Below, one piece after another: positions 6,605-52,905 of a DNA stretch of 64,000 nt (its first letter is position 1; every line of letters starts with the position of its first letter). This stretch comes from Kitasatospora sp. NBC_01250 (GTDB taxonomy: Bacteria > Actinomycetota > Actinomycetes > Streptomycetales > Streptomycetaceae), in contig NZ_CP108476.1 in NCBI RefSeq assembly GCF_036226465.1, forward strand, positions 8,184,001 through 8,248,000. Reading direction: 5' to 3'. A program made the position numbers and the translations under genes. The notes beneath the pieces were generated by a model. That model made no database searches. It was not told the origin of the DNA and saw only the letters and a program-made list of their open reading frames with translations.

Positions 6605-6818
6605 GCCGTGTCTCACAATTCGCGTCGGATCAGCGCGCGGCTCCCCCAGCCTTCGGCCGGGAGGTACCCCCACCACCCAGCCTGGCGGCTGGGTGGCGCC
6701 CGGCTGGGCGTGCCGGCGAAGCGTCCTCGTACTGGGTCGTACGTGGATGATTCGCCGGTGCGTCCAGGCGGGATGCCCGGCGTCGCGCGCCTGGCGGGAA
6801 TTGTGAGACACGGCCTAG
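6601..6818. mobile_element. MITE-like palindromic element, copy 1 (218 bp)
   Basis: The element is bounded by CTAG on both sides with near-perfect terminal inverted repeats: GGCCGTGTCTCACAATTC on the left, and its reverse complement before CTAG on the right. It has no open reading frame of note. Its 3' about 120 bp match copy 2 (7260-7428) almost exactly. It carries about 49 bp of extra internal sequence, including a self-complementary stretch (CACCCAGCC...GGCTGGGTG). CTAG flanks are typical of IS5-group target duplications, so this may be a non-autonomous derivative mobilised in trans. No transposase is visible in the window. Confidence 0.75.
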
Positions 6819-6963
6819 CGCTGCGTCGGGCGACCTCTGCGCGACGGGGCGAAGGCCGCGCTCCCGGGCGAAGGTTGCCCGATGCTGCAATGGTCCTGAT
6901 GCGGTGTCAGATCGGTGCTGTCAAGACCGGGTCCGGTTGTTCGGTCGGGGGCCTCGTCAGGTC

Positions 6964-7093: not shown

Positions 7094-7130
7094 TTTTCAT
7101 TGCGCCGCGCCGGTGACTCCCGTTAGGCTC
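7094..7130 (+). promoter_or_regulatory. Probable promoter of the 7731 PKS operon
   Basis: TTTTCATTGC (7094-7103) is followed by TAGGCTC (7124-7130). Read as TTGCGC-18 bp-TAGGCT this is a fair vegetative-type promoter. The same two blocks with exactly the same 30-nt offset occur at 37533-37569 upstream of the other PKS operon, which makes a shared promoter or activator site likely. The start of transcription would be near 7136, leaving an mRNA leader of about 600 nt. Confidence 0.6.
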
Positions 7131-7242
7131 CAAGAAGCCGACTACCTGGGCGATGTGAAGCGGTTCCGCATCGTGGGGATCCGGGGTTACGGCGCGATGT
7201 CGATGCGAGTGCTGGGCGGGCGAGCTTGCGAGGGGGATCGCT

Positions 7243-7263
7243 ATGAGGTTCTACACGTTCTAG
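7243..7263 (+). CDS. Leader mini-ORF 1 (MRFYTF)
   Basis: A six-codon ORF, ATG-AGG-TTC-TAC-ACG-TTC-TAG, with a strong AGGGGG ribosome site 8 nt upstream. A matching mini-ORF (MKFRTS) sits at the same distance from the same promoter upstream of the other PKS operon, so it is probably a genuine translated leader and not chance. The TAG stop overlaps the CTAG at the left end of palindromic element copy 2. Its role could be translation-coupled control (attenuation or stalling). Too short for family assignment. Confidence 0.45.
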   Translation: MRFYTF

Positions 7264-7428
7264 GCCGTGTCTCACAATTCGCGTCGGATCAGCGCGCGGC
7301 GTTGGGCGCCCGGCTGGGCGTGCCGGCGAAGCGTCCTCGTACTGGGTCGTACTTGGATGATTCGCCGGTGCGTCCAGGCGGGATGCCCGGCGTCGCGCGC
7401 CTGGCGGGAATTGTGAGACACGGCCTAG
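7260..7428. mobile_element. MITE-like palindromic element, copy 2 (169 bp)
   Basis: It has the same CTAG flanks and the same terminal inverted repeat (GGCCGTGTCTCACAATTC and its complement) as copy 1, but lacks the extra internal hairpin. The rest differs from copy 1 at only one or two positions, so one probably arose recently from the other or from a common source. It is inserted in the 5' leader of the first PKS operon, at the stop codon of mini-ORF 1. Confidence 0.78.
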
Positions 7429-7730
7429 CGGGGGGTTGCTTCCAATCCTTCGCCGCGGCGGCGTTGCCGGGCGCATTGTTCCTGGATGCGTTTGCGGTGC
7501 CGCCAGGGCACTGGGGTGCGTCCGAGCAGGCCTGACGCCGTCGACACTCGTCGAACCGGTGGAATTCACGCATGCCCTGAATAGGGATTGCCGACACAGC
7601 TCCCGGGTCTGTTCACCGCTGGTCCCGGCTATTTCTTGACCGCAGTTCTCCTCGTGTGCTCTGGAAGTTTCCTCCGGTGTCGCCCATGGCGGGCCGCCGC
7701 CGGTTCGACGCTGTTCTGGGATGGAAACCG
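7429..7730 (+). other. Remainder of the PKS leader 1
   Basis: 302 bp of untranslated leader between the palindromic element and the PKS start. It contains GCATGCCCTG (7570-7579) followed by GACAC, a block also present at 37815-37824 in the leader of the second PKS operon. No gene was found. Confidence 0.45.
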
Positions 7731-10700
7731 ATGACCGATTCGTCCATGTTCACCGAGACGTTCACCGAGACTCTGACCGTCACCGCGGACAACCCCCTGC
7801 TGGCGGGTCATGTCGTCTACGGGCGCACGCTGCTGCCCGGTGTCGGCTATGTGGACATGGTGCTGCAGGTCCTCGCCCGGCACGGAATGGCGATGCCCAA
7901 CGTCGAGTTGCGCAACCTGACCATCCTCGCGCCCCTGGTGGCCGCGCCGGGTGAACGGGTGCTGACCACCGTGGCGGGACGGCCCGCGCCGGCGGGCGGC
8001 TGGCGGATCGAGGTCCGCAGCCGGCGGCAGCAGGACACCTCCGACGTCCTGCACGCGGTGGTGACCGCGCTCCACCGCCCGGCGGCCCCTTACCAGGAGC
8101 GGTTGGCGCTGCCGTTGGACGGTGTGCAGAAGCTCACGCCTCTCACCGAGATCTACGCCTGGTGCCGGCAGTACGAGCTGTTCCACTCGGGGCTGATGAA
8201 GATCGGCGGCGCGGTGCACCACCGCCCCGGCGACTGGATAGCCGAGCTCGAACTCGCCCCGGAGCACCAGGGCACCGCGGACGCCTTCCTCTTCCATCCT
8301 GCCCTGTTCGAGGCCGGGTTGCTCGGTGGCGGCGTCGGTACCAGCATGCTGCACCAGGGGCCGGCCGGTCCGGAGCTCTATCTGCCGTTGGTCTTCGAGT
8401 CGTTCCGGGCGGCGGCTCCGCTGGGCAGGCGCTGCTTCGTTCGGGTACCGGTCGATTCGGTGCGCCGGGACGACGAACTCATCAGGCTGGCCGTGGAGTT
8501 CTACGACGCCGAGGGCCAGAAGGTGGCCGAGGTGAGTCAGTTCGTGGCCAAGCGGGTGCGTGCCGCGGCGGCCCTGGACGTGCGCGGCGACGCCGCTCCG
8601 GCGCCCGCCGTGCCGGTGCCTGCTGTGCCGGTGGTGGTGTCGGGTGGGCGTGATGTGGTGGGTCTGGTGCGGGAGTTGGTGGCGGCTCGGTTGGGGGAGC
8701 CGGTGTCGGGGGTTGATGTGGGGAGTGGGTATTACGAGTTGGGGTTGGGTTCGGCTGATTTGTTGTCGGTGGTGGCTGATTTGGAGGGTCGGCTGGGGTT
8801 GTCGTTGTCGCCGACGGTGATGTTCGAGTACAAGACGGTTGCCGATCTGGCGGAGTGGCTGGAGACGCAGCTGCCCGAGGAGACGAACGTCCAGGCGGCG
8901 CCCGCCGTGCCGGTGCCTGCTGTGCCGGTGGTGGTGTCGGGTGGGCGTGATGTGGTGGGTCTGGTGCGGGAGTTGGTGGCGGCTCGGTTGGGGGAGCCGG
9001 TGTCGGGGGTTGATGTGGGGAGTGGGTACTACGAGTTGGGGTTGGGTTCGGCTGATTTGTTGTCGGTGGTGGCTGATTTGGAGGGTCGGCTGGGGTTGTC
9101 GTTGTCGCCGACGGTGATGTTCGAGTACAAGACGGTTGCCGATCTGGCGCAGTGGCTGGAGACGCAGCTGCCCGAGGAGACGAACGTCCAGGCGGCGCCC
9201 GCCGCGCCGGTGGTTGCCGTGCCGGTGGCGCCCGCCGTGCCGGTGGTGCAGCCCGACCGGCTCGCCACCGTCCGGGCCGCGCTGCTCGACGAGGTGGCCG
9301 CGCTGCTGGAGGTGCCGGTGGGGGAGGTGGACCCGGGCACCGAGCTGGCCGAGTTCGGGTTCGACTGGGCCGGCCTGGCCCAGCTCGCCGACCGCCTCAA
9401 CTCCCGCTACGGCACGCAGCTCACCTCCGCCGTCTTCGCCGAGCACCGCACCGTGCAGGCCGTCGCGGCCCAGCTGGTCGACGCCGGACCGGACCGGTTC
9501 GCGGCCCTGGAATCCTCCGCCCCGGCATCCCCGGCCCCGGCGGCCGCCGTGGCAGCCCCCGAGGCCGTCCCGGCGGCCCCGGTGCGCCCGCATCCGATGC
9601 TGCACCGGGCCGTGCCGGACGCCGGGGGCATCACCTGCCACGCGCACTTCGACGGCAGCGAGCCGTACCTGAGCGACCACCGGGTGCGCGGCGGTCGCGT
9701 GCTGCCCGGTGTCGCGCACCTGGAGATGGCGCGTGCCGCGGTCGCGCTGGCGCTGGGCGCCGAGCGGCCCGACGGGGTCCGGCCGGAGGCCGTGCGGCTG
9801 GACGGCGTGGTGTGGCTGCGGCCGGCGGTCTGCGGACCGCGCGGGCTGGAGCTGCGGGTGGGCGTGCGCACGCTGCCCGGCGGCGGCTGCGACTTCACGA
9901 TCGACAGCGTGGACGAGGACGGCACGGTCACCCTGTGCAGCCAGGGCCGGGCGAGCCTGGCGGGCCCCGCGGGCCCCGGCGCGCCGTCCCTGCACGAACT
10001 GCGCGCGGCCTGCGCCGAGGCGGTGTACGGCGCCGCGCACGTCTACGGCCAGTACGAGCGCATGGGCATGGACTACGGGCCCGCCCAGCGCACCCTGGTG
10101 GAGCTGCGGGTGGGCACGGACGGCGCGGGGCGGCGCCAGGTGCTGGCGGAGCTGAGCCTGCCGGCGGCGGCGAAGCTCGCGGCGGAGTGCCGGCTGAACC
10201 CGGCCGTCCTGGACGGTGCGCTGCAGGCCACCATCGGCCTGTGGCTGGCGGAGGCGGGCGCCGACGGCCGCCCGGCCGCGCTCGCCCTGCCGTTCGCCGT
10301 GCAGCGGGTCGAGACGCCGGGCGCCACACCCGCGCGTTCCTACGCCTGGATCCGGCACCAGCCGGGGAGCAGCACCGAGGCCGCCGCGGCCCGGCTGGAC
10401 GTCACGGTCCTCGACGAGCACGGCCGGGTCTGCGTGGAGCTGACCGGACTGAGCACCCGTGCCCTGCCGGACCTGCCGCAGGCCGCCACCCCGGCGACAG
10501 CCGCCCTTCAGGCCGTCGCCCCGCAGGCCGTCGCCCCGCACGTGGCGCCCCCCGTCCCGTCCACCGCCCCCCGGCCCGCCCGCCCGCTGCCCCCGCGCCC
10601 CGGCGCCGACATCGCGATCGTCGGTGTCAGCGGCCGCTACCCGCAGGCGGCCGACCTGGACGAGTTCTGGCAGAACCTGCGCGCCGGCCGGGACTGCGTG

Positions 10701-13700
10701 CGCGAGGTCCCGGCGGAGCGCTGGGACCACCGCCGCTACGCCGACCCGAACGGCGCGAACACCAGCCGCTGGGGCGGATTCCTGGACGACATCGACCAGT
10801 TCGACCCGCTCTTCTTCCAGATCTCGCCGTTCGAGGCCGACTACCTCGATCCGCAGGAGCGCCTCTTCCTGCAGTGCGCCCACCACGCGCTGGAGGACGC
10901 CGGCTACACCGGCGAGAGCCTGGCCCGGTCGGCCGCCGAGCCCGCCGGGGACGCGGCCGTCGGCGCCCCGCCGAACCGGGTGGGCGTCTTCGTCGGCGTG
11001 ATGTACCTGGAGTACCAGCTGCTCGGCGCGCAGGCGCAGGAGCGCGGCCGCGCGACCGCGCTGTGGGGCAGCGCCTCGACCATCGCCAACCGGGTGTCGT
11101 ACGTCTACGACTTCCATGGGCCGAGCATGGCGGTGGACACCATGTGCTCGTCCTCGCTGACCGCCATTCACCTGGCCTGCGAGGCCATCCGGAGCGGCCA
11201 GTGCGACGCGGCGCTCGCGGGCGGGGTGAACCTCAGCCCGCACCCGAACAAGTACCTGATGCTCGGCCAGCGCCGGTTCCTGTCCAGCGACGGACGCTGC
11301 CGCAGCTTCGGCGAGGGCGGCGACGGCTACGTGCCCAGCGAGGGCGTCGGCGCCGTGCTGCTCAAGCCGCTGGAGCGGGCCGTCGCCGACGGTGACCACG
11401 TCTACGGCGTGATCAAGGGCACCGCGCTCAACCACGGCGGCCGGACCACGGGGTACTCGGTGCCGACCCCGGTGGCGCAGGGGCAGGTCATCGCCCGGGC
11501 GCTCACCGAGGCGGGCGTCGACCCGCGCGCGCTCAGCTACCTGGAGGCGCACGGCACCGGGACCTCGCTGGGCGACCCGATCGAGATCGACGGCCTGACC
11601 AAGGCCTTCGGCCACCTGGGCGGCGGGCCGCAGCAGTGCGCGATCGGCTCGGTGAAGTCGAACATCGGGCACGCCGAGAGCGCGGCCGGCATCGCCGCCG
11701 TCACCAAGGTGCTCCTCCAGCTGAAGCACGGGGAGCTGGTGCCGAGCCTGCACTCCGCTGCGCTCAACCCGCACATCGACTTCGCCCGCACGCCGTTCCG
11801 GGTCCAGCAGCGCCTGGAACCCTGGCAGCGGCCGGTGCTGCTGATCGACGGCGAGCAGCGCACCGTGCCGCGGCTCGCCGGCGTGTCCAGCTTCGGCGGC
11901 GGCGGTTCGAACGCCCACGTCGTCATCGCCGAGTACCAGGAGCCCGCCGGACGCCGCGCGACCGCCGCCGACGGGCGACCGGCGCTGCTGCTGCTCTCCG
12001 CCCAGAGCGAGGGCCAACTCGTCGAGCAGGCACGGCGGCTGAGCGAGCGGCTGGCCGAGCTGGGCGACGCCGACCTGCCGGACGTGGCCTGGACGCTGCA
12101 GACCGGACGGCTCGCGCTGCCCGAGCGGCTCGCCTTCGCCGCGACCTCGCCGGCCGAGGCCCGGGCGCAGCTGGCGGCGTTCGCCGCGGACCCGCAGCGG
12201 CCCGGCGCCTGGGCGCGCGGCACGGCCCGCACCGAGCGCGCGCCGGGCGGCGAGGCGCTGCGCGCGGCGCTCGCCGACTGGTCCGACCGCGCCGCGCACC
12301 AGCGGCTGCTGGCGCTGTGGGTGGAGGGGGCCGCCGTGGACTGGGCGGCGCTGCGCCCGGCCGGCCCGCCCGCCCGGCGGATCAGCCTGCCCGGCTACCC
12401 GTTCGCCCGCGAGCGGCACTGGGTGGACCCCGAGGCCGGTCCGGCGCTGGCCGCCCCGCTCGCGAGCGGCGCGGCCGCCGTGCCCGCGGCCGGCCCCGCC
12501 GCGTCCGCGCCCGCCTCCACGCCCGCCGCGACCGCCTCCACTCCCGCCGCGCCGGTGATCCCGCACGAGGTCGACGAGGTGCTGCTGCGCCCGGTCTGGT
12601 CGGTGCGCGAGGCCGGGCCCGCCGACCGGCCGGGGCCGGCCTTCGCGGCGCACCACGTGGTGCTGCTCGGCCGGTTCACGGCCGGTGAGCGCGAGACCCT
12701 GCGGGCCGCGCTGCCCGCCGGCACCGATCCGCAGTTCGTGGAGCTCGCGGACGGCCCGCTCGACCGCCAGTACACCGAGGCGGTGCAGCGGCTCTTCGCG
12801 CTGACCCGCGGGATCCTCGAAGCGGGCGTACGGCAGCCGGTGCTGCTCCAGGTCGCCCTGGTGGGCGCCGCGCAGGGACCGGCCGAGCTCGACCGGCTGG
12901 CCTGTTTCGGCGCGCTGGCAGGCCTGCTGAAGACCGCCCAGCTGGAGCACCCGCTGCTGCACACCCAGTACCTGGAGTGCCTGGACGCCCCCTCGGCGGC
13001 CGCCCTCGCCGCCCGCCTGCTCGCCGAGGCGGCCGGCCGCCCCGACCCGGAGGTGCGCCACCGCGACGGCCGGCGGCACGTCGCCGGGCTGGCCGAGCTG
13101 ACCGGTGCCCGGCCCGCCGCCGCGCCCTGGCAGCAGGACGGCGTCTACCTCATCACCGGGGGCGCCGGGGGGCTGGGCCTGATCGTGGCGCGCGAGATCG
13201 CCGCCTCGGTCGGGCACGCCACCGTGGTGCTCGCCGGGCGCTCGCCGCTGGACGCGGCGCGGCGCGGCGAGCTGGCCGCCCTGCGGGCGGCGGGGCTGAC
13301 GGTGGACTACCAGCGCGCCGATGTCGGCGACCGGGCGCAGGTGGCCCGGCTGCTGGCCCAGGTGGCCGACAACCACGGGCCGCTGACCGGCATCCTGCAC
13401 AGCGCCGGGGTGATCGAGGACGGCTACCTGGTCCGCAAGACCCCCGAGGAGCTGGCCCGGGTGCTGGCGCCCAAGGTCGCCGGACTGGTCAACCTGGACG
13501 AGCTGAGCCAGGACCAGCCGCTCGCCCTCTTCGTCTGCTTCTCCTCGCTCAGCGGGGCGTTCGGCAACCCCGGGCAGGGCGACTACGCGGCGGCCAACGC
13601 CTTCCTGGACGCCTACGCGGGCTACCGCAACCGCCTGGTGGCGGCAGGGCTGCGCAGCGGGGCGACGGTCTCCGTCGGCTGGCCGCTGTGGGCCGAGGGC

Positions 13701-16625
13701 GGCATGGGCGACGCCGCCGCCCGCGAGCTGCTGAGCGGCGCGGGCCTGGCACCGCTGGACACCGCCCGGGGGCTGGCGGCGCTGCGCTGCGCGCTGGCCG
13801 GGCGGGAGAACGGGCTGGACGACGGCAGGCTGCTGGTCGTCGCGCACCGGCGGGGCGCCGAGCTGCCCTGGCTCCCGGGGCAGGGCGGACCGGTGGCCGA
13901 GACACCGCGCCCCGAGCCGGCGACGGCTCCCGGCGCGGACCCGGCCCCGCAGGACCGGGCCCTGGCGGACCGGGCCGTGGGCCACCTGCGGCGCCTGCTG
14001 GCGACGGCCCTGGGGCTCGGCCCCGAGCGCCTGGACCCGGACGCGCCGCTGGAGCGCTACGGCATGGACTCCGTCCTCGCGGTGAACCTGGTCTCCCGGC
14101 TGGAGGAGACCTTCGGTCCGCTGTCGCGCACGCTGCTCTTCGAGGTGCAGTCGGTGCGCGGGCTGGCCCGGTACTTCGCGGCGGACCACCCGCAGGAGCT
14201 GCGGACGCTGGTGGGCGCACCCGCCGTGGCACCGCAAGCACCCCGCACCCCCGCCCCAACTCCCGCCCCCGTCGCACCGCAGCCACAGGCCGCTGCACCG
14301 CAGCCGCAGGCCGCCGCGCCGGCCCCGCGCCCGGCCGACGGCGCGCACGCCTCCCGGTCGCGGCCGGCCGAGGACGCCATCGCCGTCATCGGCATCGGCG
14401 GGCGCTTCCCGCAGGCCGAGGACCTGGACGCGTTCTGGGACATCCTGCGCAGCGGCAAGGACTGCGTCACCGAGGTCCCGGCCGGCCGCTTCGACGAGCA
14501 GCCCGACGCCGACCCGGACGCCCCCGGCGCCGGCCGCGGGTGGTGGGGCGCGTTCCTGGACGGCGTCGACCGGTTCGACCCGCTGCACTTCGGCATCTCG
14601 CCGCGCGAGGCGGTGGCGATGGATCCGCAGCAACGGCTCTTCCTGGAGACCGTCTGGCACCTGCTGGAGCAGAGCGGGGTGACGCAGGAGGTCATCGAGC
14701 AGCGCTACCGGCGGCGGGTCGGCGTCTACGTCGGGTCGGCCTACCAGATGTACCGGGCCGACGAGTCGGACCCGACGCTGGCGGCGCTCACCGCGGCGGC
14801 CTCGTTCAACCTGATCGCCAACCGGGTCTCGCACTTCTTCGGCCTGGAGGGCCCGAGCCTGGCGGTGGACAGCATGTGCACCTCCTCCACCATGGCCATC
14901 CACCTCGCCTGCGCCGACCTGCTGCGCGGCGAGAGCGAGCTGGCCGTCGCCGGTGGCGTGAACCTCACCGTCCACCCGGACAAGTACACGGCGCTGGCCG
15001 AGATGCAGCTGCTCGGCAGCCACTCGGGCAGCCGCAGCTTCCGGGACGGCGACGGCTACCTGCCCGCCGAGGTGGTCGGCGCGGTGCTGCTCAAGCCGCT
15101 GGCGGCGGCGCTGCGCGACGGCGACACCGTGCACGCCGTCATCAAGGGCACCGCCTCGATGCACGCCGGGCGGTCCAACGGCTTCATGACGCCCAGCCAC
15201 CGCACCCAGGTGAAGGTACTGCGCCAGGCGCTGGAGCGCTCGGGCGCCACCCCGGACTCGATCGGCTACGTGGAGGCCGCGGCCAGCGGCACGGCCTTCT
15301 CCGACGAGGTCGAACTGCGGGCGCTGCGCGAGGTGTTCGGCGCGGTGACCGAGCCGGTGGCGGTCGGCACGGTGAAGTCGAACCTCGGGCACCCCGAGGC
15401 GGCCTCCGGCATCGCGCAGCTCGCCAAGGTGGTCCTGCAGCTGCGGCACCAGGAGCTCGCGCCGCTGGTGGAGGTCGGCACCGCCAACCCCAACCTGGAT
15501 CTCGACGGTTCGCCGCTGCGGCTCTGCGAGCGGCTGACCCCCTGGGAGCCGCGCGGCGCGAAGGACGCGCAGGGCCGCCCCGCGCCCCGCCGTGCGCTGA
15601 TCAACTCGGTGGCGGCCGGCGGCAGTCACGTGACGCTGGTGGTGGAGGCCCCGCCGCGGGTCCAGGCCGCCCAGGCCGCCCCGGCGGACCCGGGGGAGGC
15701 CGGGCGCCAGCTGGTGGTGCTCTCCGCCCGCACCCCGGAGCGGCTGCGCACGGCGGCCCAGCGACTGCACGACTTCCTGGCGTCCCTGGGCGGCGGCGCG
15801 GACGAGGTGGGCCTCGCGGACCTCGCCTACACCGCGCAGCTGGGCCGGGAGGCGCTGCCCGAGCGGCTCGCCGTGGTGGCGGGCAGCAGGGAGGAGCTGA
15901 CCAGGGCGCTCGCGGAGCACCTGACCGCGGGCCCGGGCGCCACCGGGGCCGGGGCGGTCGTGCTCGGCAACGCGGAGGAGGACGCCGGTCCGCTGGGCAG
16001 CGTGCTGACCGGTGCCCGGGGCGAGGCCTTCCTGGCCGGTCTGGTTGCGGACGGCGATCTGGAGCACCTGGCGGAGCTGTGGGTGCGCGGCGCCCGGGTG
16101 CCGTGGGCCGGTCTCCACCAGGGCCCGCGCCGGCTGGTGCCGCTGCCGGCGACCGCCTTCGAGGCGGGCGCCTACTGGCTCGGCCGCCGCCCCGCCGGGC
16201 CCGTCACGGTACGACCCGACGGCGACGCCGACCCCGACATCGACGCCGGCCCTGGCGCCGCGCCGCAGGCGGCGGCCGCCGGTGACGCGCTGCGGACCAT
16301 GACCGGGGCCTGGTCGGAGCTGCTGGGGATCGATGCCGACCGGCTCGGCGCGAGGAGCAACTTCTTCTCGCTCGGCGGCAATTCACTGCTCGCGACCCGC
16401 CTGATCAACCTGCTGGCCCGCCGCACCGGCGTGCAGCTGCCCGTCCAGGCCGTCTTCGACGCGCCCAAACTCGCGGCGATGGCAGGCGAGTTGGAGCGCC
16501 GGTTGCCGTCGGGCGGGGCGCTCGGCGTGCCCGAGGTGGACCGGATCCTGGCGAGCATCGGCCTGATCGAGAGCATGACCGACGAGGAGCTCGACGCCCT
16601 GGGCGTCGAGAGCGTCGAGAACTAG
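7731..16625 (+). CDS. Trans-AT PKS: DH*-ACP-ACP-ACP0-DH-KS-KR-ACP-KS0-PCP
   Basis: A 2,964-aa AT-less polyketide synthase. Order: DH-like domain (residues about 14-280; HVVYGRTLLP present, but the second-motif Asp is Glu in HPALFEAGL); two near-identical ACPs (about 290-490, GLGSAD); a third ACP fold with Trp for the attachment Ser (FGFDWAGL, about 507-585); an intact DH (620-910; DHRVRGGRVLPG, LDGALQ); a KS (957-1400; TMCSSS, EAHGTGT, KSNIGH); KR (about 1800-2040; GGAGGLG, GDYAAAN); ACP (GMDSV); a second KS with SMCTSS but ASGTA for HGTGT; and a PCP-like carrier (LGGNSLL). It begins mid-module, so an upstream protein must deliver a chain ending in KS. ATG 7731 is preferred (GGGATGGA upstream) over GTG 7656. 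It ends 15 nt before the NRPS it feeds. Confidence 0.88.
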   Translation: MTDSSMFTETFTETLTVTADNPLLAGHVVYGRTLLPGVGYVDMVLQVLARHGMAMPNVELRNLTILAPLVAAPGERVLTTVAGRPAPAGGWRIEVRSRRQQDTSDVLHAVVTALHRPAAPYQERLALPLDGVQKLTPLTEIYAWCRQYELFHSGLMKIGGAVHHRPGDWIAELELAPEHQGTADAFLFHPALFEAGLLGGGVGTSMLHQGPAGPELYLPLVFESFRAAAPLGRRCFVRVPVDSVRRDDELIRLAVEFYDAEGQKVAEVSQFVAKRVRAAAALDVRGDAAPAPAVPVPAVPVVVSGGRDVVGLVRELVAARLGEPVSGVDVGSGYYELGLGSADLLSVVADLEGRLGLSLSPTVMFEYKTVADLAEWLETQLPEETNVQAAPAVPVPAVPVVVSGGRDVVGLVRELVAARLGEPVSGVDVGSGYYELGLGSADLLSVVADLEGRLGLSLSPTVMFEYKTVADLAQWLETQLPEETNVQAAPAAPVVAVPVAPAVPVVQPDRLATVRAALLDEVAALLEVPVGEVDPGTELAEFGFDWAGLAQLADRLNSRYGTQLTSAVFAEHRTVQAVAAQLVDAGPDRFAALESSAPASPAPAAAVAAPEAVPAAPVRPHPMLHRAVPDAGGITCHAHFDGSEPYLSDHRVRGGRVLPGVAHLEMARAAVALALGAERPDGVRPEAVRLDGVVWLRPAVCGPRGLELRVGVRTLPGGGCDFTIDSVDEDGTVTLCSQGRASLAGPAGPGAPSLHELRAACAEAVYGAAHVYGQYERMGMDYGPAQRTLVELRVGTDGAGRRQVLAELSLPAAAKLAAECRLNPAVLDGALQATIGLWLAEAGADGRPAALALPFAVQRVETPGATPARSYAWIRHQPGSSTEAAAARLDVTVLDEHGRVCVELTGLSTRALPDLPQAATPATAALQAVAPQAVAPHVAPPVPSTAPRPARPLPPRPGADIAIVGVSGRYPQAADLDEFWQNLRAGRDCVREVPAERWDHRRYADPNGANTSRWGGFLDDIDQFDPLFFQISPFEADYLDPQERLFLQCAHHALEDAGYTGESLARSAAEPAGDAAVGAPPNRVGVFVGVMYLEYQLLGAQAQERGRATALWGSASTIANRVSYVYDFHGPSMAVDTMCSSSLTAIHLACEAIRSGQCDAALAGGVNLSPHPNKYLMLGQRRFLSSDGRCRSFGEGGDGYVPSEGVGAVLLKPLERAVADGDHVYGVIKGTALNHGGRTTGYSVPTPVAQGQVIARALTEAGVDPRALSYLEAHGTGTSLGDPIEIDGLTKAFGHLGGGPQQCAIGSVKSNIGHAESAAGIAAVTKVLLQLKHGELVPSLHSAALNPHIDFARTPFRVQQRLEPWQRPVLLIDGEQRTVPRLAGVSSFGGGGSNAHVVIAEYQEPAGRRATAADGRPALLLLSAQSEGQLVEQARRLSERLAELGDADLPDVAWTLQTGRLALPERLAFAATSPAEARAQLAAFAADPQRPGAWARGTARTERAPGGEALRAALADWSDRAAHQRLLALWVEGAAVDWAALRPAGPPARRISLPGYPFARERHWVDPEAGPALAAPLASGAAAVPAAGPAASAPASTPAATASTPAAPVIPHEVDEVLLRPVWSVREAGPADRPGPAFAAHHVVLLGRFTAGERETLRAALPAGTDPQFVELADGPLDRQYTEAVQRLFALTRGILEAGVRQPVLLQVALVGAAQGPAELDRLACFGALAGLLKTAQLEHPLLHTQYLECLDAPSAAALAARLLAEAAGRPDPEVRHRDGRRHVAGLAELTGARPAAAPWQQDGVYLITGGAGGLGLIVAREIAASVGHATVVLAGRSPLDAARRGELAALRAAGLTVDYQRADVGDRAQVARLLAQVADNHGPLTGILHSAGVIEDGYLVRKTPEELARVLAPKVAGLVNLDELSQDQPLALFVCFSSLSGAFGNPGQGDYAAANAFLDAYAGYRNRLVAAGLRSGATVSVGWPLWAEGGMGDAAARELLSGAGLAPLDTARGLAALRCALAGRENGLDDGRLLVVAHRRGAELPWLPGQGGPVAETPRPEPATAPGADPAPQDRALADRAVGHLRRLLATALGLGPERLDPDAPLERYGMDSVLAVNLVSRLEETFGPLSRTLLFEVQSVRGLARYFAADHPQELRTLVGAPAVAPQAPRTPAPTPAPVAPQPQAAAPQPQAAAPAPRPADGAHASRSRPAEDAIAVIGIGGRFPQAEDLDAFWDILRSGKDCVTEVPAGRFDEQPDADPDAPGAGRGWWGAFLDGVDRFDPLHFGISPREAVAMDPQQRLFLETVWHLLEQSGVTQEVIEQRYRRRVGVYVGSAYQMYRADESDPTLAALTAAASFNLIANRVSHFFGLEGPSLAVDSMCTSSTMAIHLACADLLRGESELAVAGGVNLTVHPDKYTALAEMQLLGSHSGSRSFRDGDGYLPAEVVGAVLLKPLAAALRDGDTVHAVIKGTASMHAGRSNGFMTPSHRTQVKVLRQALERSGATPDSIGYVEAAASGTAFSDEVELRALREVFGAVTEPVAVGTVKSNLGHPEAASGIAQLAKVVLQLRHQELAPLVEVGTANPNLDLDGSPLRLCERLTPWEPRGAKDAQGRPAPRRALINSVAAGGSHVTLVVEAPPRVQAAQAAPADPGEAGRQLVVLSARTPERLRTAAQRLHDFLASLGGGADEVGLADLAYTAQLGREALPERLAVVAGSREELTRALAEHLTAGPGATGAGAVVLGNAEEDAGPLGSVLTGARGEAFLAGLVADGDLEHLAELWVRGARVPWAGLHQGPRRLVPLPATAFEAGAYWLGRRPAGPVTVRPDGDADPDIDAGPGAAPQAAAAGDALRTMTGAWSELLGIDADRLGARSNFFSLGGNSLLATRLINLLARRTGVQLPVQAVFDAPKLAAMAGELERRLPSGGALGVPEVDRILASIGLIESMTDEELDALGVESVEN
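8601..9194 (+). repeat. Tandem 297-bp duplication encoding two ACPs
   Basis: Two head-to-tail copies (8601-8897 and 8898-9194) differ at about two positions: TAT/TAC in the YYELG codon pair, and GAG/CAG giving E/Q before WLETQ. Each encodes one complete ACP plus linker. Unlike the surrounding gene, both copies use many TTG, GGG, GAT and GCT codons, so the segment has a different origin or history from its host gene. Confidence 0.92.
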
Positions 16626-27091: not shown

Positions 27092-27146
27092 GCGCCTCTC
27101 CTTCGGTGGGTGAGGGCGCCGGCCGACCCGCGGGCCGGCCGGCCCG

Positions 27147-37532: not shown

Positions 37533-37569
37533 TTTTCATTGCATCTGGCCAGGTGCTCGGGCTAGGCTC
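37533..37569 (+). promoter_or_regulatory. Probable promoter of the 38029 PKS operon
   Basis: TTTTCATTGC (37533-37542) and TAGGCTC (37563-37569) reproduce the two blocks upstream of the 7731 operon with the same 30-nt offset. Read as TTGCAT-18 bp-TAGGCT it is a reasonable sigma-70-type promoter. Shared elements suggest the two PKS operons are switched on together. Confidence 0.62.
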
Positions 37570-37681
37570 GCTTTAGACGGGGAGCTTGTAAGGATTTGAC
37601 TGCGGTGCGGCGGCTCGGGGATGGGGCCGCGGGGCCAGCAGGCGCTTGTTCTGTCGGGCGGAAGTTGACAGGGGGGCCACG

Positions 37682-37702
37682 ATGAAGTTCCGGACGTCGT
37701 AG
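37682..37702 (+). CDS. Leader mini-ORF 2 (MKFRTS)
   Basis: ATG-AAG-TTC-CGG-ACG-TCG-TAG, preceded by GGGGGG 5-10 nt upstream. It matches mini-ORF 1 (MRFYTF) in length, in the pattern ATGArGTTCnnnACGTnnTAG, and in distance from the promoter (119 nt from TAGGCT to ATG in both). Probably a translated leader peptide with a control role. Confidence 0.45.
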   Translation: MKFRTS

Positions 37703-37728: not shown

Positions 37729-37759
37729 GGTGGCACTGCGGTCTCTTGCCGGTGCCACC
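37729..37759 (+). promoter_or_regulatory. Hairpin in the PKS leader 2
   Basis: GGTGGCAC pairs with GTGCCACC across a 15-nt loop, 27 nt after the mini-ORF stop. A stem at this distance could form or melt depending on ribosome occupancy of the mini-ORF (inference). Confidence 0.35.
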
Positions 37760-38028
37760 GGTTTCCTGGGCACACTTCGAACGCCGCCGACCCGGTCGGC
37801 CAGGTGATTTCGAGGCATGCCCTGCAGGGGTCGGCAGGACACGTATTCCGGCAGCGTGCCGGAGCGTCTCCCACGGGTATTTCGTCCTGCCGCATTTTTC
37901 CGTGCCCGCTCCCGCTTGCCGGGATCAGCACACTTTGTCGCGCATTCTCGCACCCGGGACACCGCGGGTGATTCCGGCTGCCCCCGTGCGGTCGGGCGCA
38001 CGGACCAGGACGAAGGAGAGTTGGGCCA

Positions 38029-41000
38029 GTGAGCAGCCCCGAGGTTCCTATCGCGGCCGAGACGGATGTGGCGATCATCGGCATGTCCGGGCGCTTTCCC
38101 GGCGCGGACGACCTGGACTCCTTCTGGCGACTGCTGAGCGAGGGGCGCGAGGGCATCACCCGGTTCAGCCGCGAGGAGCTGGCCGCGGCCGGCGTGCCCG
38201 CCCGGCTGCTGGACGACCCGGGCTACGTGCCGGCCCACGGGGTGCTCCCGGACGTGGACCTCTTCGACACCGGGTACTTCGAATTCACCCCGGCGGAAGC
38301 CGAGTTCACCGATCCACAGCACCGCATCCTGCTGACGGCCGGGCACGCCGCGCTGGAGCACGCCGGCTACGACCCGGCCCGCTACGACGGGCTGATCAGC
38401 GTCTGGGCCGGCGCCGCCATCAACACCTACCTGCAGCAGCAGGTGCTGCCCAACGTCGACCAGACCACCACCTCCAACCACTTCGCGGTGATGGTCGGCA
38501 ACGACAAGGACTTCCTGGCCACCCGGCTCTCCTACAAGCTCGACCTCAAGGGCCCCAGCTACACGGTGCAGACGGCCTGCTCCACCTCGCTGGTCGCCAT
38601 CCACCTGGCGTGCCAGGGGCTGATCAACGGCGAGTGCGACATGGCACTGGCCGGCGGCGTCACCGTCAAGCTGCCGCAGACCAAGGGCTACCTCTACGAG
38701 GAGGGCGCCATCCTGTCCGAGGACGGGCATGTGCGCACCTTCGACGCCGAGGCCAGCGGCACCGTGCTCGGCAACGGCGTGGGCGTCCTGGTGCTCAAGC
38801 TGCTCAGCGACGCCATCGCCGACCGGGACACCGTCCACGCCGTCATCAAGGGCACGGCGACCAACAACGACGGCTCCGGCAAGGTGAGTTTCGCCGCGCC
38901 CGGCGCCGCCGGCCAGGCCGCCGTGATCCGCGAGGCGCACGCGGTCTCCGGGGTGGACCCGCGCTCGATCAGCCATCTGGAGGCGCACGGCACCGCCACC
39001 CGGCTCGGCGATCCGGTCGAGGTCTCCGCGCTCACCAAGGCCTTCCGGGCACAGACCGAGGAGACCGGATTCTGCGCGATCGGCTCGGTGAAGTCCAACC
39101 TCGGCCACCTGGACGCCGCGGCGGGAGTCGCCGGCGTGATCAAGACCGCGCTGATGATGAAGCACCGCACGCTGGTGCCGACCCTCAACTACCGCACCCC
39201 CAACCCCGCGATCGACTTCGCCGCCGGCCCCTTCACGGTCAGCACCACCACCGCGCCCTGGCGGGCGGAGGGCCCGCTGCGCGCCGGGGTCAGCTCCTTC
39301 GGCATCGGCGGCACCAACGCCCACGCCGTCCTGGAGGAGGCGCCGCCGGCGCCGGTCGCCGAGGAGGCGGTCGGCCGACAGGTGCTGGTGCTCTCCGCGC
39401 GGACGTCGAGCGCCCTGCGCACGGCCGCCCACCACCTGGCCGACCACCTGGACGACAGCCTGGCCGACCGGCCGGACGGCGGACCGGCGGCCACCCTCGC
39501 CGACATCGGCTACACCCTGGCGGTGGGCCGCCGCGCGCACGAGTACCGGCTCGCCGTCTGCGGCACCGACCGCGCCGAACTCGCCCGTGCGCTGCGGGAG
39601 TCCACGATCCCGGCGGAGCCGGCGGGCGGTGAGCTCTCCTTCGTCCTCACCGAGCAGGTGACCGGCGCCGGCGACCTCGCCGAGCAGTGGTGCGCCACCG
39701 AACCGGTCTTCGCCGAGCACTACCGGGCCGCCCTCGCGGCCGGTGCGGGCGAGCACGGCGAGCGGGGGGCGGCGTTCGCGCTGCAGTACGCGCTCGGCCG
39801 GCTCTGGCTCGGCTGGGGCCTGCGCCCGGTCGCGGTGCACGGCGACGGCCTCGCGGCCCGCGCCGCCGCCTGCGTGATCGGGGCGCTCGACCTGGCCGAC
39901 GGCGCCGCCGCAGCGGCCGGGACCGCCGCGGCACTGAGCACTGCGGCGTCAACTGCCGCCAAGGGAACGCGGATCGCGCTGCGCGGGGCGCTGGAGGAGG
40001 TGCGCGGCCTGGTGCTGAGCGTCGACTCGGTGCGCGCGGGCGGGCCGCGGGAGGCCGTGGCCCGGGCCTGGGAGGCCGGGGCGGGCATCGACTGGCAGGC
40101 CTGGTTCGCGGGGCAGCAGCGCGGCCGGGTGCCGCTGCCGACCTACCCCTTCGAGGGTCGGCGCTGCTGGATGACCGGCCCAAAGGCCCCCGCCGCGACC
40201 GTCTCCGGTCAGGGCCCGCACCCCATGCTGGACGAGAACGTCTCCACCCTGGACGCCTTGGCCTACCGCAGCACCCGCTCGGGCAGCGAGTTCTACCTGG
40301 CCGACCACGTCGTCGGCGGCGAGCCGGTGATGCCGGCGGTCGGCTACCTGGAGCTGGCCCGGGCGGCGGGCGAGCTCCAGAGCGGCGGCCCGGTCCAGCT
40401 GCGCGGCGTCTCCTTCGACCAACTCCTCTCCTACGCCCGGGGACCGCGTACCGCGCTGGTCTCGCTCTGGCGGGTGCGCGATGCGGTCGGCTTCGAGATC
40501 ACCGAGCAGGACGAGGTGTACGCGGCGGGGGAGATCCGCACCGGCGCCGTCGAACCGCCCGTCGCGGTCGACCTCGACGCGCTGAGCGCACGGTGCACCG
40601 AGGTGGTCCCGCACCAGGACTGCTACGCCGAACTGCGGTCCCACGGACTGGAGTACGGCCCCCGGATGCGGGCGCTGGCGGAGGTGGCGCTCGGCGAGGG
40701 CGAGGCACTCGCCCTGCTCGAACCGCCCGCCGGGGCCGAGTTGGCCGGCGCGCTGCTCAACCCGGCACTGCTGGACGGCGCGCTGCACGCCCTGGTGGTG
40801 CTGCTCGCCCGCTGCTACGGATCGGCGGCCGAGGGCTTCCTGCCGCTGGCACTCGGCGAGTTGAGCGTGCATGCACCCGTCGACGGGCCCTGCTGGGTGC
40901 GGGTGGCGCTCGGGCGGCTCGGCGAGCGCACCGCACACGCCGAGCTGACCGTGCTGGACTCGCGCGGGCAGGTGCTGGCCGAGCTGCGCGATCTGACGGT

Positions 41001-44000
41001 CCGTGTCCTGGCCGGCTCGCACAACTCGGCGCTGCTGGAGCGCCGATGGACCTTGGCCGCGGCGCAGGCCTCGGCCGAGCCGGTCACGGCCCCCGGGCGG
41101 CGGATCGGCAGAGCGGTGGTGGTCGCCGCCGAGGCGGACCGTCGCACCGAACTCGCCGAGCTGCTGCGCTCCTTGGGGGCCGAGCAGGTCACCGCGCTCG
41201 CCCCCGGCGCGCAGCTCGCCGCGGCCCCGGACACCGTCCTGGCCGATGAGCCCGAGCCCGGCCAGGCGCTGGCCCTGGTGCGGCAGTTGCTCCGCGGCCG
41301 CCCGAAGGCGCCGGTCCGGGTAGTGCTGACGCACCGTCATGATGCCGCTGGCGCGCGGCCGGAGTATGCCGCGCTGGCCGGCTTCGCCCGCGCCGTGCGG
41401 GCGGAGAACCCGCTGCTCGCGCTCCAGGTGGTCGGCCTGGCCGAGGGTGTGGACGGGGCGGCGGCGCTCCGCGCGGAGCTGGCCGGCCCGGGGCACGAAG
41501 CCGAACTGCGGTACACCGCCGCCGGGCGCGAGCTGCCGCACCATCTCCCGGCGGCGCACACCGAGCCGGTCGCCGTCCGCGACGGCGGCCTCTACCTGAT
41601 CACCGGTGGCGCAGGCGGCCTCGGCCGGGCCGTGGCCGGCTTCCTGCTGGGCCGGGCCGATGCCCGGGTGGTGCTGCTGGGCCGCAGCGAGCTGTCCGGC
41701 GCGGAGCTCGACCCGCGGGCCGTCCACCGCCGCGTCGACGTCACCGACCCCGCCGCGCTCGCCGAGCAACTGGCCGAGATTCGCGAGGAGTTCGGCCCGA
41801 TCAACGGAGTCGTGCACGCCGCGGGCGTGCTGCGCGACGGCTTCGCCCTCACCAAGACCGACGCCGACTTCGCCGCCGTGCTGGCCCCCAAGGTGGCCGG
41901 CCTGCGCGCGCTGGACGAGGTCACGGCGGACGATCCGCTCGACTTCTTCCTCGCCTTCTCCTCGATCGCCGCCCACATCGGCAGCGCCGGGCAGAGCGAC
42001 TACGCCTACGCCAACGCCTTCCTGGAGGCCTACGCCGAGCGCAGCCCGCGGGTGACCGCGATCGCCTGGCCGATGTGGGCCGAGGGCGGGATGCGGCAGA
42101 GCGCGGAGGCGGCGGCGGAGATCGCCGGGCGGACGGGCTTCGGGGTGCTGCCCACCGCCACCGGGCTGGCCCTGCTGGAGCAGGCCCTCGGCGCCCGCGG
42201 TGCGCTGCTGGCGGCCTACGGCGACACCGGGCGGATCGCCGCGGCGCTCGCCCCGGCCGCCTCGCCCGCTGCCGCTTCGCCCACCGCTGCCTCCCCCACC
42301 CCGGCCGAGCGCGCCGCGCAGACCGGTGCGGACGGCGGTGCGGACCCGCGGGCCGACGCCCTGCGCCTGCTGCGCGAGCTGATCGCCGCCGAGACCGGCC
42401 TGGACCCGGCGGAGCTCGCCGCCGACGCGCCGTTCGACCGCTACGGCATCGACTCGCTGATGATCACCAAGCTCAACCGTCAGCTGGACCGCCGCTTCGC
42501 GGGCCTGTCCAAGACCCTCTTCTTCGAGTACGCGACCCTGGGCGAGCTGGCCGACTACTTCGCCGAGCAGCACGCCGCCGACCTGCGCGGCGCCTCCTCC
42601 GACCGGCCAACCCCGTCCACCACCGCGCTCCCGGCGCTCGCCGCCGCGCCGCGGCAGGCCCGGACCGCCCGCACCCGCCGCGGCATCGCCCCCGAGCCCG
42701 AGCCCGAGCCCGTCCCCGAGAACGAGCCCGCCCCCGAGAACGACGCGATCGCGATCATCGGCCTGGCCGGCCGCTACCCGATGGCCGACGACCTCGACGA
42801 GTTCTGGACCAACCTGCTCCAGGGCCGCGACTGCATCAGCGAGATCCCCGAGGACCGCTGGGACCGCGACCGCTGGTACGACCCCGACCCGGCCGCACCC
42901 GGCCGCGCCCACACCCGCTGGGGCGGCTTCCTGCGCGACGTGGACCGCTTCGACCCGCTCTTCTTCGGCATCTCGCCCCGCCAGGCCGAGCTGATGGACC
43001 CCCAGGAGCGGCTCTTCCTGCAGAGCGCCTGGCACGTGCTGGAGGACGCCGGCTACCGGCGCGCCGAGCTGTCCGGCCGCCCGGTGGGCGTGTACGTCGG
43101 CGTGATGTACGGCGAGTACCAGTTCCACGGCGCGCTGGACGTGCTGGGCACCGGCGGCCCGCTGACCGGCTCCTCGTTCGCGACCATCGCCAACCGGGTC
43201 TCCTACACCCTCGGCCTGTCCGGCCCCAGCCTGGCGCTCGACACCATGTGCTCCTCCTCGCTGACCGCGATCCACCTGGCCTGCGAGAGCCTGCGCCGGG
43301 GCGAGAGCGAGCTGGCGATCGCCGGCGGCGTCAACGTCTCGGTCCACCCCTACAAGTACGCCTTCCTCAGCCAGGGCCGCTTCCTCTCCTCCGACGGCCG
43401 CTGCCGCGCCTTCGGCGAGGGCGGCGACGGCTACGTGCCGGGCGAGGGGGTCGGCGCCGTCCTGCTGAAGCCCTACCGGCAGGCGCTGGCCGACGGCGAC
43501 CGGATCCACGGCGTCGTCCTGGGCAGCGCGATCAACCACGGCGGCCGGACCAACGGCTACACGGTGCCCAGCCCGCACGCCCAGCAGCGCGCGGTGAGCG
43601 CCGCGATGGCGCAGGCGGGCCTCGGCCCGGAGCAGATCGGCTACATCGAGGCCCATGGCACCGGCACCTCGCTGGGCGACCCGATCGAGCTGACCGGCCT
43701 GACCAACGCCTACCGCTCGGCCGGTGCCGAGCCGGGTCGCTGGCCGATCGGTTCGGTCAAGTCCAACGTCGGGCACCTGGAGTCCGCGGCCGGCATGGCC
43801 GGCCTGACCAAGGTGCTGCTCCAGTTCGCCCACCACACCCTGGTGCCCTCGCTGCACTCGGCCGAGCTCAACCCGAACATCGACTTCGACCGCTCGCCGT
43901 TCCGGGTGCAGCGCGAGGCGGCCGACTGGCCCGCGGGCGACCAGCCGCGCCGGGCCGGACTCAGCTCCTTCGGCGCGGGCGGCGCCAACGCGCACCTGGT

Positions 44001-47000
44001 GCTGGCCGAGTCGCCGCGCCTCGACCCGCGCGCCGACCGCCCGGCCGGCGAGCAGCGCACCGCCGAGCCCGTCCTCTTCCTGCTCTCGGCGCGTGACGAG
44101 GAGCGGTTGCGCGCCTACGCGGAACAGGCGGCGCACTTCCTGGCCACCGAGCACGTCGAGCTGGCCGACCTGTGCTGGACCACCCAGGTGGGCCGCGAGG
44201 CCATGGCGGCCCGGCTGGCCGTGCTCGCCACCGACGGCGCCAGCATCCTCGCCGCGCTGCGCGACTTCGCCGCCGGTGGCCCACTGCCCGAACTCACCGA
44301 CGGCGGCGCGGCGTTCGAGCCAGGGCCTGTCCCGCCGATAGCCGAGCCGGCCAGGCGCTGGCTCGCCGGCGCCGAGGTGGACTGGGCCGCCCAGCACACC
44401 GACCGCCCCGGCCCGGCACCGCGCCGGGTGCGCGCGCCGCGCTACCCGTTCGCCGCCGAGCGCTACTGGATCGAGCTGACCCCGCCCGCGCCCGGCGCCC
44501 AGGCGCTGCACCCGCTGGTGGACGCCAACGAGTCCACCGTGTCGGAGCTGCGGCTGCGCAAGACGCTGCGCGCGGGCGATCCGCTGCTGCGCGACCACGT
44601 GATCGAGGGCCGGGCGCTGCTCGCCGGCGCGGCCACCCTGGAGTTCGTCCGGGCCGCCGCCGCGCTGGTCGAGCCGGGCGTGCGGCACGCGCTGCACGAG
44701 GTGGTCTGGGGCCGCGCGATCGAGCTGCCGGCCGGCGAGCTGGCGCTCTACGCGGCCTTCCGGCCCGGCCCGCAGGCGCTGGACTTCGAGGTGTACAGCG
44801 AGGGCGCGCAGGGCCGGGTCACCCATGCCCGGGGCCGCGCCGTCCCCGGACCGGCCGCCGCGCCCGCCGCCACCGACCTGGCGGCGCTGCGCGCCCGGCT
44901 CGCCCCCGTGCGCGACCGGGCCGGCGCCTACGCCGACTACCGGGCCGCGGGTTTCGGCTACGGCCCCTCCTTCCAGGTCATCGACGAGATCCGCAGCGGC
45001 CCGGCCGAGGCGCTGCTGAAGCTGTCCGGCCCCGAGGCGGCGGCGGGCGTGGAGCCGGCGCCGGCGCTGCTCGACGGCGCGCTGCGGGCCTGCCACTGGG
45101 CCGGGCGGAGCACCGCGCCCCGCGCCGGCGAACTCGCCGTGCCGTTCAGCCTCGGCGCCGTCGAGCTGTTCGCCCCGCTGCCCGCCGTCGTCTACGCGCA
45201 CGCCCGGCTGGTCTCGGAGACCGCCGGGGTGCGCCGCTTCGACCTCACCGTCCACGACGAGCAGGGCCAGGTGCTCGCCGAGCTGCGGGACTTCGCCGGC
45301 CGGATGCCGAACGCCCCGAGCCCCGGGAGCGGTTCACCGCGCGCCTACCAGCCCTACTGGCATGCCGCCGCCGAGCCGGAGCCCGGTGCGACGGCCGGCA
45401 CCCTGCTGCTGGTCGGCGAACTGCCGGGCCTGGAGCCCGCCCTGGCCGCGACCGGAGCTTGGCAGCGGATCGTCACCATCGCCGAAGACCCCGACCGGAT
45501 CGGCGCGTTGCTCCCCGAACTCGGTGAACTGCCGGGCCTGGACGTGGCGTTCGTCGCGGGCCTGGCCGACGCGCCCGCCCTCGGGCAGGACTCCACCGAC
45601 GCCCTGGCGCTGGACGCCGAGCTGGACCAGGCCTGCTTCGCCGTGCTGGAGGTGCTGCGCGCCGCCGAGTCGGGCGCGCTCCGGGGCCGGGTGCGCTGCC
45701 TGCTCGCCCACCTGCAGGACGACGGGCAGGACCGCCCGGGCCGCGCCGCGCTGGCCGGGTTCGCCCGCTCCACCGGCGCGATCGCCCCGCGCTTCGAACT
45801 GCTCACCCTGGGCCTGCCCGCCAGCGCCCCCGCCGCCGAACTGGCCGCCGCGCTGGCCGTCGAGCTGCGCGCCGCGCCGCGCGCCGCCGGGCTGGAGGTG
45901 CGCCGCACCCCGGCCGGCGACCGCGAGCTGCGCGCGCTGCAACCGCTGCCGGACGGCGCCGCTGCCGACTCGCCGCTGCGCGAGCAGGGCGTCTACGTGA
46001 TCACCGGCGGCAGCGGCGCGATCGGCCGCCTGCTGGCCGAGCACCTGGCGCGCAGTTGCCGGGCCCGCCTGGTGCTGATCGGCCGCTCCGCGCCGGACGC
46101 CGAGGCGGCGCGCTGGCAGCAGTCGCTGGCCGAGCGCGGCGCCGAGGTGCTCGCGCTGCGCGCCGACGTGGCCCGGGCCGAGGAGCTGGCCGCCGCGCTG
46201 GCCATGGCCAGGGAGCGCTTCGGTGCGCTGCACGGGGTGTTCCACCTGGCCGGGGTGGCCGACGACGGCCGGGCCACCGACGGCGGCCGGGAGCGCTTCG
46301 CTCGGGTGCTGGCGGCCAAGACCCGCGGCCTGGTCCAGCTGGACCAGCTGACCCGCGCGGACGCCCTCGACCTCTTCGCGGTCTTCTCCTCGGTCTCCTC
46401 GCTGGTCGGCGACTTCGGCGCGGCGAGCTACGCCACGGCGAACCGCTTCGCCGACCTCTACACCGCGCGCCGCCAGGCCTGGGTGCGCGAGGGCGCCCGC
46501 AGCGGGCGCAGCCTCGCGCTGGACTGGCCGCTCTGGTCGGTCGGCGGGGTCGATGCCCTGGTGCGCGAGGAGGAGCTGACCGCCTACACCCGGCGCAGCG
46601 GCATGCCCGCGCTCACCGCCGAACAGGGGCTGGGCGCCTTCGAGTACGCGCTGACGGCCGGCGACGCGCCCTGGCTGCTGCCCGCCTGGGGCGAGGCGGC
46701 GGCACTGGATGCTGCGCTGCTGGGCGAGCCGCCGCGGCCCGCGCCGCTCGCCACCCCCGCGCCCGTCTCCACCCCCGCGCCGGTGACCGCTCCGGCGAGC
46801 GAGGGCCGGCGCACCCGGGCCGCCGTGGTCGAGCACCTGCGCACGGTGCTGTCCGGGGTGCTCAAGCTGCCCGCGGGGCGGTTGGACAGCCGCGTCGCGC
46901 TCGACGACTACGGTCTGGACTCGGTGCTGGTCATGGAGTCCAACACCCTGCTCGGCAAGGACTTCCCGGGGCTGCGCGGCACCGTCTTCTTCGAGTGCCG

Positions 47001-52901: not shown

Positions 52902-52905
<4 letters not shown>
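38029..52905 (+). CDS. Trans-AT PKS: KS-AT0-DH-KR-ACP / KS-DH-KR-ACP / KS-DH-KR-MT-ACP
   Basis: A 4,958-aa three-module AT-less synthase. Module 1: KS (residues 11-440; TACSTS, EAHGTAT), a vestigial AT without GHSxG (about 540-715), DH (724-1005), KR (1183-1370; GGAGGLG, SDYAYAN), ACP (GIDSL). Module 2: KS (1570-2010; TMCSSS), DH with HVIEGRALLA (Pro lost) and DGALR, KR (2650-2870; ASYATAN), ACP (GLDSV). Module 3: KS (3045-3480; TACSAS), DH (HVVGGRPILP), KR (4145-4375; AGYAAGC), C-methyltransferase (4415-4780; LEVGAGTGGTS), ACP (GVDSL). The Pro-rich C-terminus ends in a probable docking helix. The GTG start has GAAGGAGAG. The stop overlaps the next start (ATGA). KS1 resembles synthases that accept chains from peptide modules. 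Malonyl units must come from a separate AT outside the window. Confidence 0.9.

Follow-up and report, generated by a model that had tools for sequence, protein, structure and literature searches.

Organization of the locus

The window, a 64,000-nucleotide stretch of the Kitasatospora sp. NBC_01250 genome (contig NZ_CP108476.1), contains the starts of two operons, each headed by a gene for a trans-AT type polyketide synthase (PKS). The first gene of operon 1 (7731..16625, + strand) starts at ATG 7731, which is common to its homologues and lies within a longest frame that opens at 7656; it is followed by an NRPS gene (16641-24707). The first gene of operon 2 (38029..52905, + strand) encodes a PKS of 4958 aa, and large frames in the same direction run on to approximately 81.8 kb, counted from the start of the window. 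Pfam scans of four PKS proteins encoded in the window gave no AT domain, consistent with trans-AT synthases. Genes for a C5N-type unit, encoding a 5-aminolevulinate synthase (27147-28373, with a model score above the cut-off) and an acyl-CoA ligase (25556-27274), occupy the interval between the operons, together with those for a P450 and a TPP enzyme.

A 317-aa protein encoded at 35513-36466 (- strand) has no Pfam or NCBIfam match and is 55-65% identical to proteins of nine Streptomyces genomes. Its gene was tried as a route to related clusters and set aside, as at none of the nine loci does a PKS match exceed 38% identity. In L009-L011 the homologue has the same alcohol dehydrogenase within 10 kb, joined in L011 by the TPP enzyme; a tblastn search of plasmids with this neighbour gene gave no match. 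An EF-G-like GTPase gene (L007:5172-7172, window coordinate 89172-91172), located approximately 7 kb past the end of operon 2, possibly encodes a protein of the ribosomal-protection type, and no counterpart was detected in the relatives' stretches compared.

The two leaders

Upstream of the operons, the promoter element TTTTCATTGC occurs on the + strand of the window only at 7094..7103 (leader 1) and 37533..37542 (leader 2), the -10 hexamer TAGGCT only at 7124..7129 and 37563..37568, and the mini-ORF pattern ATGArGTTCnnnACGTnnTAG only at 7243 and 37682 (exact searches). The offsets from TTTTCATTGC are the same in both leaders, +30 for TAGGCT and +149 for the mini-ORF, and the positions and equal spacing given in a preliminary description of this DNA (7094/7124/7243 and 37533/37563/37682) are exact to the base. 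In the 9,001,608-base genome, a single contig searched on both strands, the mini-ORF pattern has two matches, as does TTTTCATTGC-N20-TAGGCT with up to two mismatches, and in each case these are the two leaders. The most plausible -35 hexamer is TTGCGC in leader 1 (7100-7105) and TTGCAT in leader 2 (37539-37544), opening with the TTGC within TTTTCATTGC, 18 nt before TAGGCT. The reading of TAGGCT as the -10 fits the TAnnnT reported as the -10 of S. lividans promoters (excerpt of PMC8079986). A scan with an E. coli-type consensus missed the promoter of the leaders.

Mini-ORF 1 (7243..7263, + strand; ATG AGG TTC TAC ACG TTC TAG, peptide MRFYTF) follows the Shine-Dalgarno sequence (SD) GAGGGGG (7230..7236), and mini-ORF 2 (37682..37702, + strand; ATG AAG TTC CGG ACG TCG TAG, peptide MKFRTS) follows the SD region CAGGGGGG (37669..37676). 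Both SDs are predicted to be strong, with duplex energies of -10.7 and -11.5 kcal/mol, respectively, calculated against a 16S tail; the strong SD and six-codon ORF described earlier are thus present in both leaders. The second half of each leader contains the block GCATGCCCTG (7570..7579 and 37815..37824, + strand), which is identical across four aligned cassette copies.

Leader 1 is split by a MITE-like insertion (7260..7428) that the preliminary description does not mention, an inverted-repeat element of approximately 165 bp with terminal inverted repeats of about 20 nt (arms 7260-7283 and 7405-7428, 96% complementary) and CTAG on either flank. The left CTAG includes the stop codon of mini-ORF 1, which is unchanged. 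A second MITE-like element lies at 6600-6819; both elements have GGCCGTGTCTCACAATTC inverted repeats and CTAG flanks, and two blocks, of 126 nt (99%) and 41 nt (100%), are common to them, although their lengths differ. Further inverted-repeat pieces are located approximately 0.4 kb to the left of the window.

Occurrence of the cassette upstream of related PKS genes

Related clusters were collected with the first 400 residues of PKS 1, which matched 23 of 297 family genomes at E <= 1e-30. The PKS 1-type set comprises the places at 61-75% identity, the window itself and five places (60-76%) from 392 sister-genus genomes, a total of 21 places in 17 genomes, with matches at 31-38% left out. Resampling 353 genomes of the larger genus returned the same ten genomes, and in a class-wide sample of 394 genomes, four match PKS 1 at E <= 1e-60, all within the family. 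Orthologues of the PKS 2 start (85-89%) are present in G063, G100, G248, G272 and G219 among 12 genomes searched, making six places with the window. The 21 PKS 1-type and six PKS 2 places supply 27 upstream regions, of which that of G600 spans only 432 nt.

The preliminary description had proposed conservation in related clusters as a check, and the cassette is indeed conserved ahead of PKS genes that are related. G063, another species of the genus, has TTTTCATTGC-N20-TAGGCT before both orthologous operons, with GTGAGATCCTGCGGTATTTAG and ATGAGATCCTGCGGTATTTAG following it; the peptide is MRSCGI at both, with start codons GTG and ATG. In other clusters the promoters TGTTCATTGC (G051), TTTTGATTGC (G034, one mismatch in the element) and TGTTCATTGC (G454) lie upstream of the related PKS gene, and the SD-led six-codon ORFs there encode MVFFNF, MAMFSS and MIFGCM, respectively. 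Partial forms are also found. G059 has an exact promoter element and G173 a two-mismatch element (TGTTCCTTGA), each without the short ORF. A seven-codon ORF (MSPIFHR) behind a promoter that lacks the element is present in G109 and G268, and a second G063 cluster lacks the element and has a six-codon ORF elsewhere, with an SD of -6.9 against the threshold of -7. Longer, Cys-containing candidate uORFs (MMIGEKCGLCLCEHD... and MGCCDLCG...) were seen by eye near the place of the mini-ORF in L044 (the second G063 cluster) and L047 (G173).

At 15 of the 27 places, in G100, G248, G272, G219, G321, G600, G575 and G393, both the element and the short ORF are absent from the DNA examined. Homologous PKS genes thus occur in eight genomes without the cassette, which is therefore not needed for this type of PKS. 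By eye, at several of these 15 places other genes precede the PKS gene in its operon, and a leader may lie farther upstream. An all-against-all comparison of 217 predicted proteins of <1200 aa from the stretches of nine genomes revealed no regulator gene common to the clusters. The most widely shared set is a short-chain dehydrogenase (SDR) gene near the leader in six clusters (L046, L045, L049, L047, L050 and L109).

Association and specificity of the element and the short ORF

A uniform scan finds a six-codon ORF with an SD dG <= -7 in 7 of the 27 upstream regions, and this ORF is associated with the promoter element. If one mismatch is tolerated, the element is present in eight regions, seven of which have the ORF, versus 0 of the 19 others (Fisher 9e-6); the corresponding counts are 6/7 versus 1/20 when no mismatch is allowed (1.6e-4) and 7/9 versus 0/18 when two are allowed (4e-5), and as the relatives are not independent, these p values serve as guides only. 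In a control set of genuine upstream regions, each 300 nt or longer, such an ORF occurs in 7 of 97, or in 5 of 95 once the window leaders are removed; the control genes were predicted by codon-position G+C alone, and the set may partly include leaders of the relatives. Dinucleotide shuffles of 12 leader-like regions (300 sets) give a mean of 0.20 and a maximum of 3, versus 7/12 observed, where the 12 leaders, used for the spacing and shuffle tests, were picked by eye from the 27 as promoter- or ORF-like and the ORF and element counts use all 27.

The promoter pattern is specific. Among 70 genomes of the genus it has five exact matches, every one upstream of these PKS genes, and among 392 sister-genus genomes a single exact match, the G454 leader. 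The relaxed pattern TKTTCATTGC-N18-21-TANNNT has seven matches in nine genomes, again all upstream of these PKS genes (7/7). One-mismatch matches in G025, G051 and G066 were judged on reading to be due to chance.

Features retained among the diverged leaders

In the seven six-codon leaders, the -35 and the start codon are 143, 143, 135, 140, 154, 156 and 112 nt apart; in both seven-codon leaders the distance is 134 nt. The spacing thus varies among leaders, so the equal spacing within the window reflects shared history or coincidence rather than a rule, and the "fixed geometry" of the preliminary description gives way to a range of 112-156 nt. Its strict mini-ORF consensus fares similarly: among the 70 genus genomes, the exact pattern is confined to this genome and absent from the other 69. 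What is kept is the length of the ORF, while the residues change (MRFYTF, MKFRTS, MRSCGI twice, MVFFNF, MAMFSS and MIFGCM). The proposal of a shared control device stands in that the cassette is common to both operons and kept in related clusters, and falls in its fixed spacing and strict consensus.

All nine short ORFs of six or seven codons end in TAG, followed by C in eight (leader 1 being read across the MITE), and the exchange of ATG and GTG at the start fits translation of the mini-ORF. The six-codon ORF is retained where the cluster flanks are only 43-49% identical. In a rough neutral simulation, an intact ORF of the same length was kept with a frequency of 0.008-0.085 (six comparisons between different genomes, six codons); these comparisons are not independent, and the value for the window leader pair (0.023) concerns the source of the original observation. 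The simulation is uninformative for the closest pairs, with values of 0.18 (the two G063 copies) and 0.64 (G109/G268). A strong SD, an ATG or GTG start and a stop after six codons are kept while the residues vary, which argues for the position of the ribosome, and not the peptide, as the feature that matters.

RNA structure and comparison with known uORF leaders

No conserved strong fold was detected in the leaders: 32 of 36 local z-scores differ from shuffles by no more than 2, and G034 accounts for three of the four outliers. The consensus fold of the four cassette copies has a modest advantage over column shuffles, of which 2 in 100 score as well. Hairpins are predicted 3' of the ORF in several leaders, including GGTGGCAC...GTGCCACC (37729..37759, + strand), which begins approximately 27 nt past the stop of mini-ORF 2 and has no T-tract. 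No convincing intrinsic terminator was found, candidates of the T-tract type occurring at chance level (1 versus a mean of 0.5; 0 versus 0.4). A stretch rich in C and poor in G, of the kind suited to Rho loading, follows the ORF, but it is mild and variable and was given no weight. Rfam 15 has no match at the gathering score within the window.

The promoter could be the only regulated part, with the mini-ORF acting as a translated, non-regulatory ribosome-loading site that protects or stabilizes the long 5' leader, for which any short ORF led by a strong SD would suffice. The non-conserved peptide, the lack of a conserved strong fold or convincing terminator, and the promoter element being the most specific part all agree with this explanation, which we nevertheless consider unlikely because it leaves unexplained why seven diverged leaders have exactly six codons and why all nine six- or seven-codon ORFs stop at TAG.

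The leaders share two features with ribosome-mediated (uORF) attenuators: a short ORF with a ribosome-binding site lies in a long 5' leader, the transcription of which is predicted from the promoter, and the ORF is conserved upstream of homologous genes (7/27 regions). An amino-acid-responsive attenuator was considered and rejected, as MRFYTF, MKFRTS, MRSCGI, MVFFNF, MAMFSS, MIFGCM and MSPIFHR contain no run of a regulatory codon. The attenuators of S. lividans (trpL, leuL, ilvL and others) likewise place a leader peptide before a biosynthetic gene, but their peptides are of 12-29 residues, most of them enriched in the regulated amino acid (excerpt of PMC8079986), whereas the PKS mini-ORFs have six codons and no such run.

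Closer in size is msrDL (MYLIFM), the leader of the macrolide-resistance gene msrD, in which expression is set by a ribosome at a six-codon ORF with a strong RBS (PMC10314930, excerpt). It differs from the PKS cassette in several respects, as far as that excerpt of PMC10314930 goes: it controls a resistance gene, whereas the cassette heads a polyketide operon; its ORF ends in UAA rather than TAG; it is followed by a Rho-independent terminator, for which the PKS leaders have no convincing equivalent; and its residues L3 and I4 matter, whereas the PKS-leader peptide is not conserved. The lmrC, are5sc and tiaA leaders resemble the cassette in being streptomycete, in having tiny uORFs within long 5'UTRs and in their link to antibiotic production. 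However, their target is an ABCF resistance gene, by way of which the lmrC leader also acts on the regulator lmbU, and a terminator/antiterminator pair is described for them (excerpts of PMC8546547 and PMC12421871). The PKS cassette, in contrast, heads the PKS operons themselves and is present twice. Searches of open-licence papers turned up no account of a uORF leader heading PKS operons.

By analogy with msrDL and lmrC, the hexapeptide ORF might sense the product of the cluster, or some other ribosome inhibitor, through stalled ribosomes that raise transcription into the PKS operons. The msrDL hexapeptide ORF stalls ribosomes at its stop codon (PMC10314930, excerpt), and a Streptomyces uORF as short as are5scL1, the tripeptide MLV, is translated and antibiotic-stalled at the ABCF resistance gene that it controls (PMC12421871, excerpt). 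The hairpins predicted after the ORF in several leaders would also suit such an attenuator. It is improbable here, however, given the unconserved peptide, the lack of a convincing intrinsic terminator and the absence of an ABC-type ATPase among the 20 proteins scanned in the region.

Duplication of the cassette

In a gapped alignment from the promoter to GCATGCCCTG, leaders 1 and 2 are identical at 172 of 291 positions (59%), a similarity that extends beyond the short motifs noted in the preliminary description. The two G063 copies are 82% identical to each other over approximately 300 nt between the same limits; window leader 1 has 70-71% identity to each of them, and window leader 2 has 59-60% identity to the other three copies. 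The identities among the four copies show that one cassette was copied between operons, and leaders 1 and 2 are homologous, each a copy of a single cassette of approximately 300 nt. At least in G063, the copies were either made alike again or copied late. The match between the window leaders is consequently due at least in part to descent from a duplicated cassette and is not by itself evidence of constraint, which is supplied by the relatives.

Descent from an upstream region duplicated between operons, with the promoter and mini-ORF alike by common origin and the ORF functionless, would account for the homology from the promoter to GCATGCCCTG and for the 82% identity in G063, but it is a distinctly doubtful explanation of a six-codon ORF that persists where the flanks are only 43-49% identical and that occurs in 7/8 element-bearing regions versus 0/19 others.

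A model for joint control of the PKS operons

The cassette before both PKS operons is probably a real control device. Our preferred reading, to which we assign a probability of about 0.5, is that the duplicated promoter-leader cassette governs both operons jointly: its hexapeptide uORF would be translated, and occupancy by ribosomes would provide the gating step, which is inferred. The cassette, of approximately 300-370 nt, would consist of a housekeeping-type promoter with the cluster-specific TKTTCATTGC over its -35, a leader of approximately 105 nt, a strongly initiated six-codon uORF and then 210-430 nt to the PKS start (seven leaders). The cassette would most likely subject both PKS operons to the same control, exerted at two levels: transcription may be set by some factor or feature at the TKTTCATTGC promoter, and a ribosome on the tiny uORF may set the amount of RNA that continues into, or survives as, the PKS message. 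The uORF would act through where and when the ribosome sits, rather than through a particular peptide.

A more far-reaching version is that the hexapeptide uORF senses the state of translation, or the product of the cluster, by the position of the terminating ribosome, and that it has been selected for length rather than sequence and copied as a cassette for the joint control of several giant operons. We regard this version as a speculative and rather remote prospect.

Work on how giant PKS operons are controlled usually looks to pathway regulators and promoters. If the preferred reading is true, a conserved, duplicated cassette with a length-constrained ORF would represent a translational layer that gene annotation likely overlooks. 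Such a cassette would explain how two operons stay in step, and moving clusters of this kind into other hosts would require that it be retained or bypassed.
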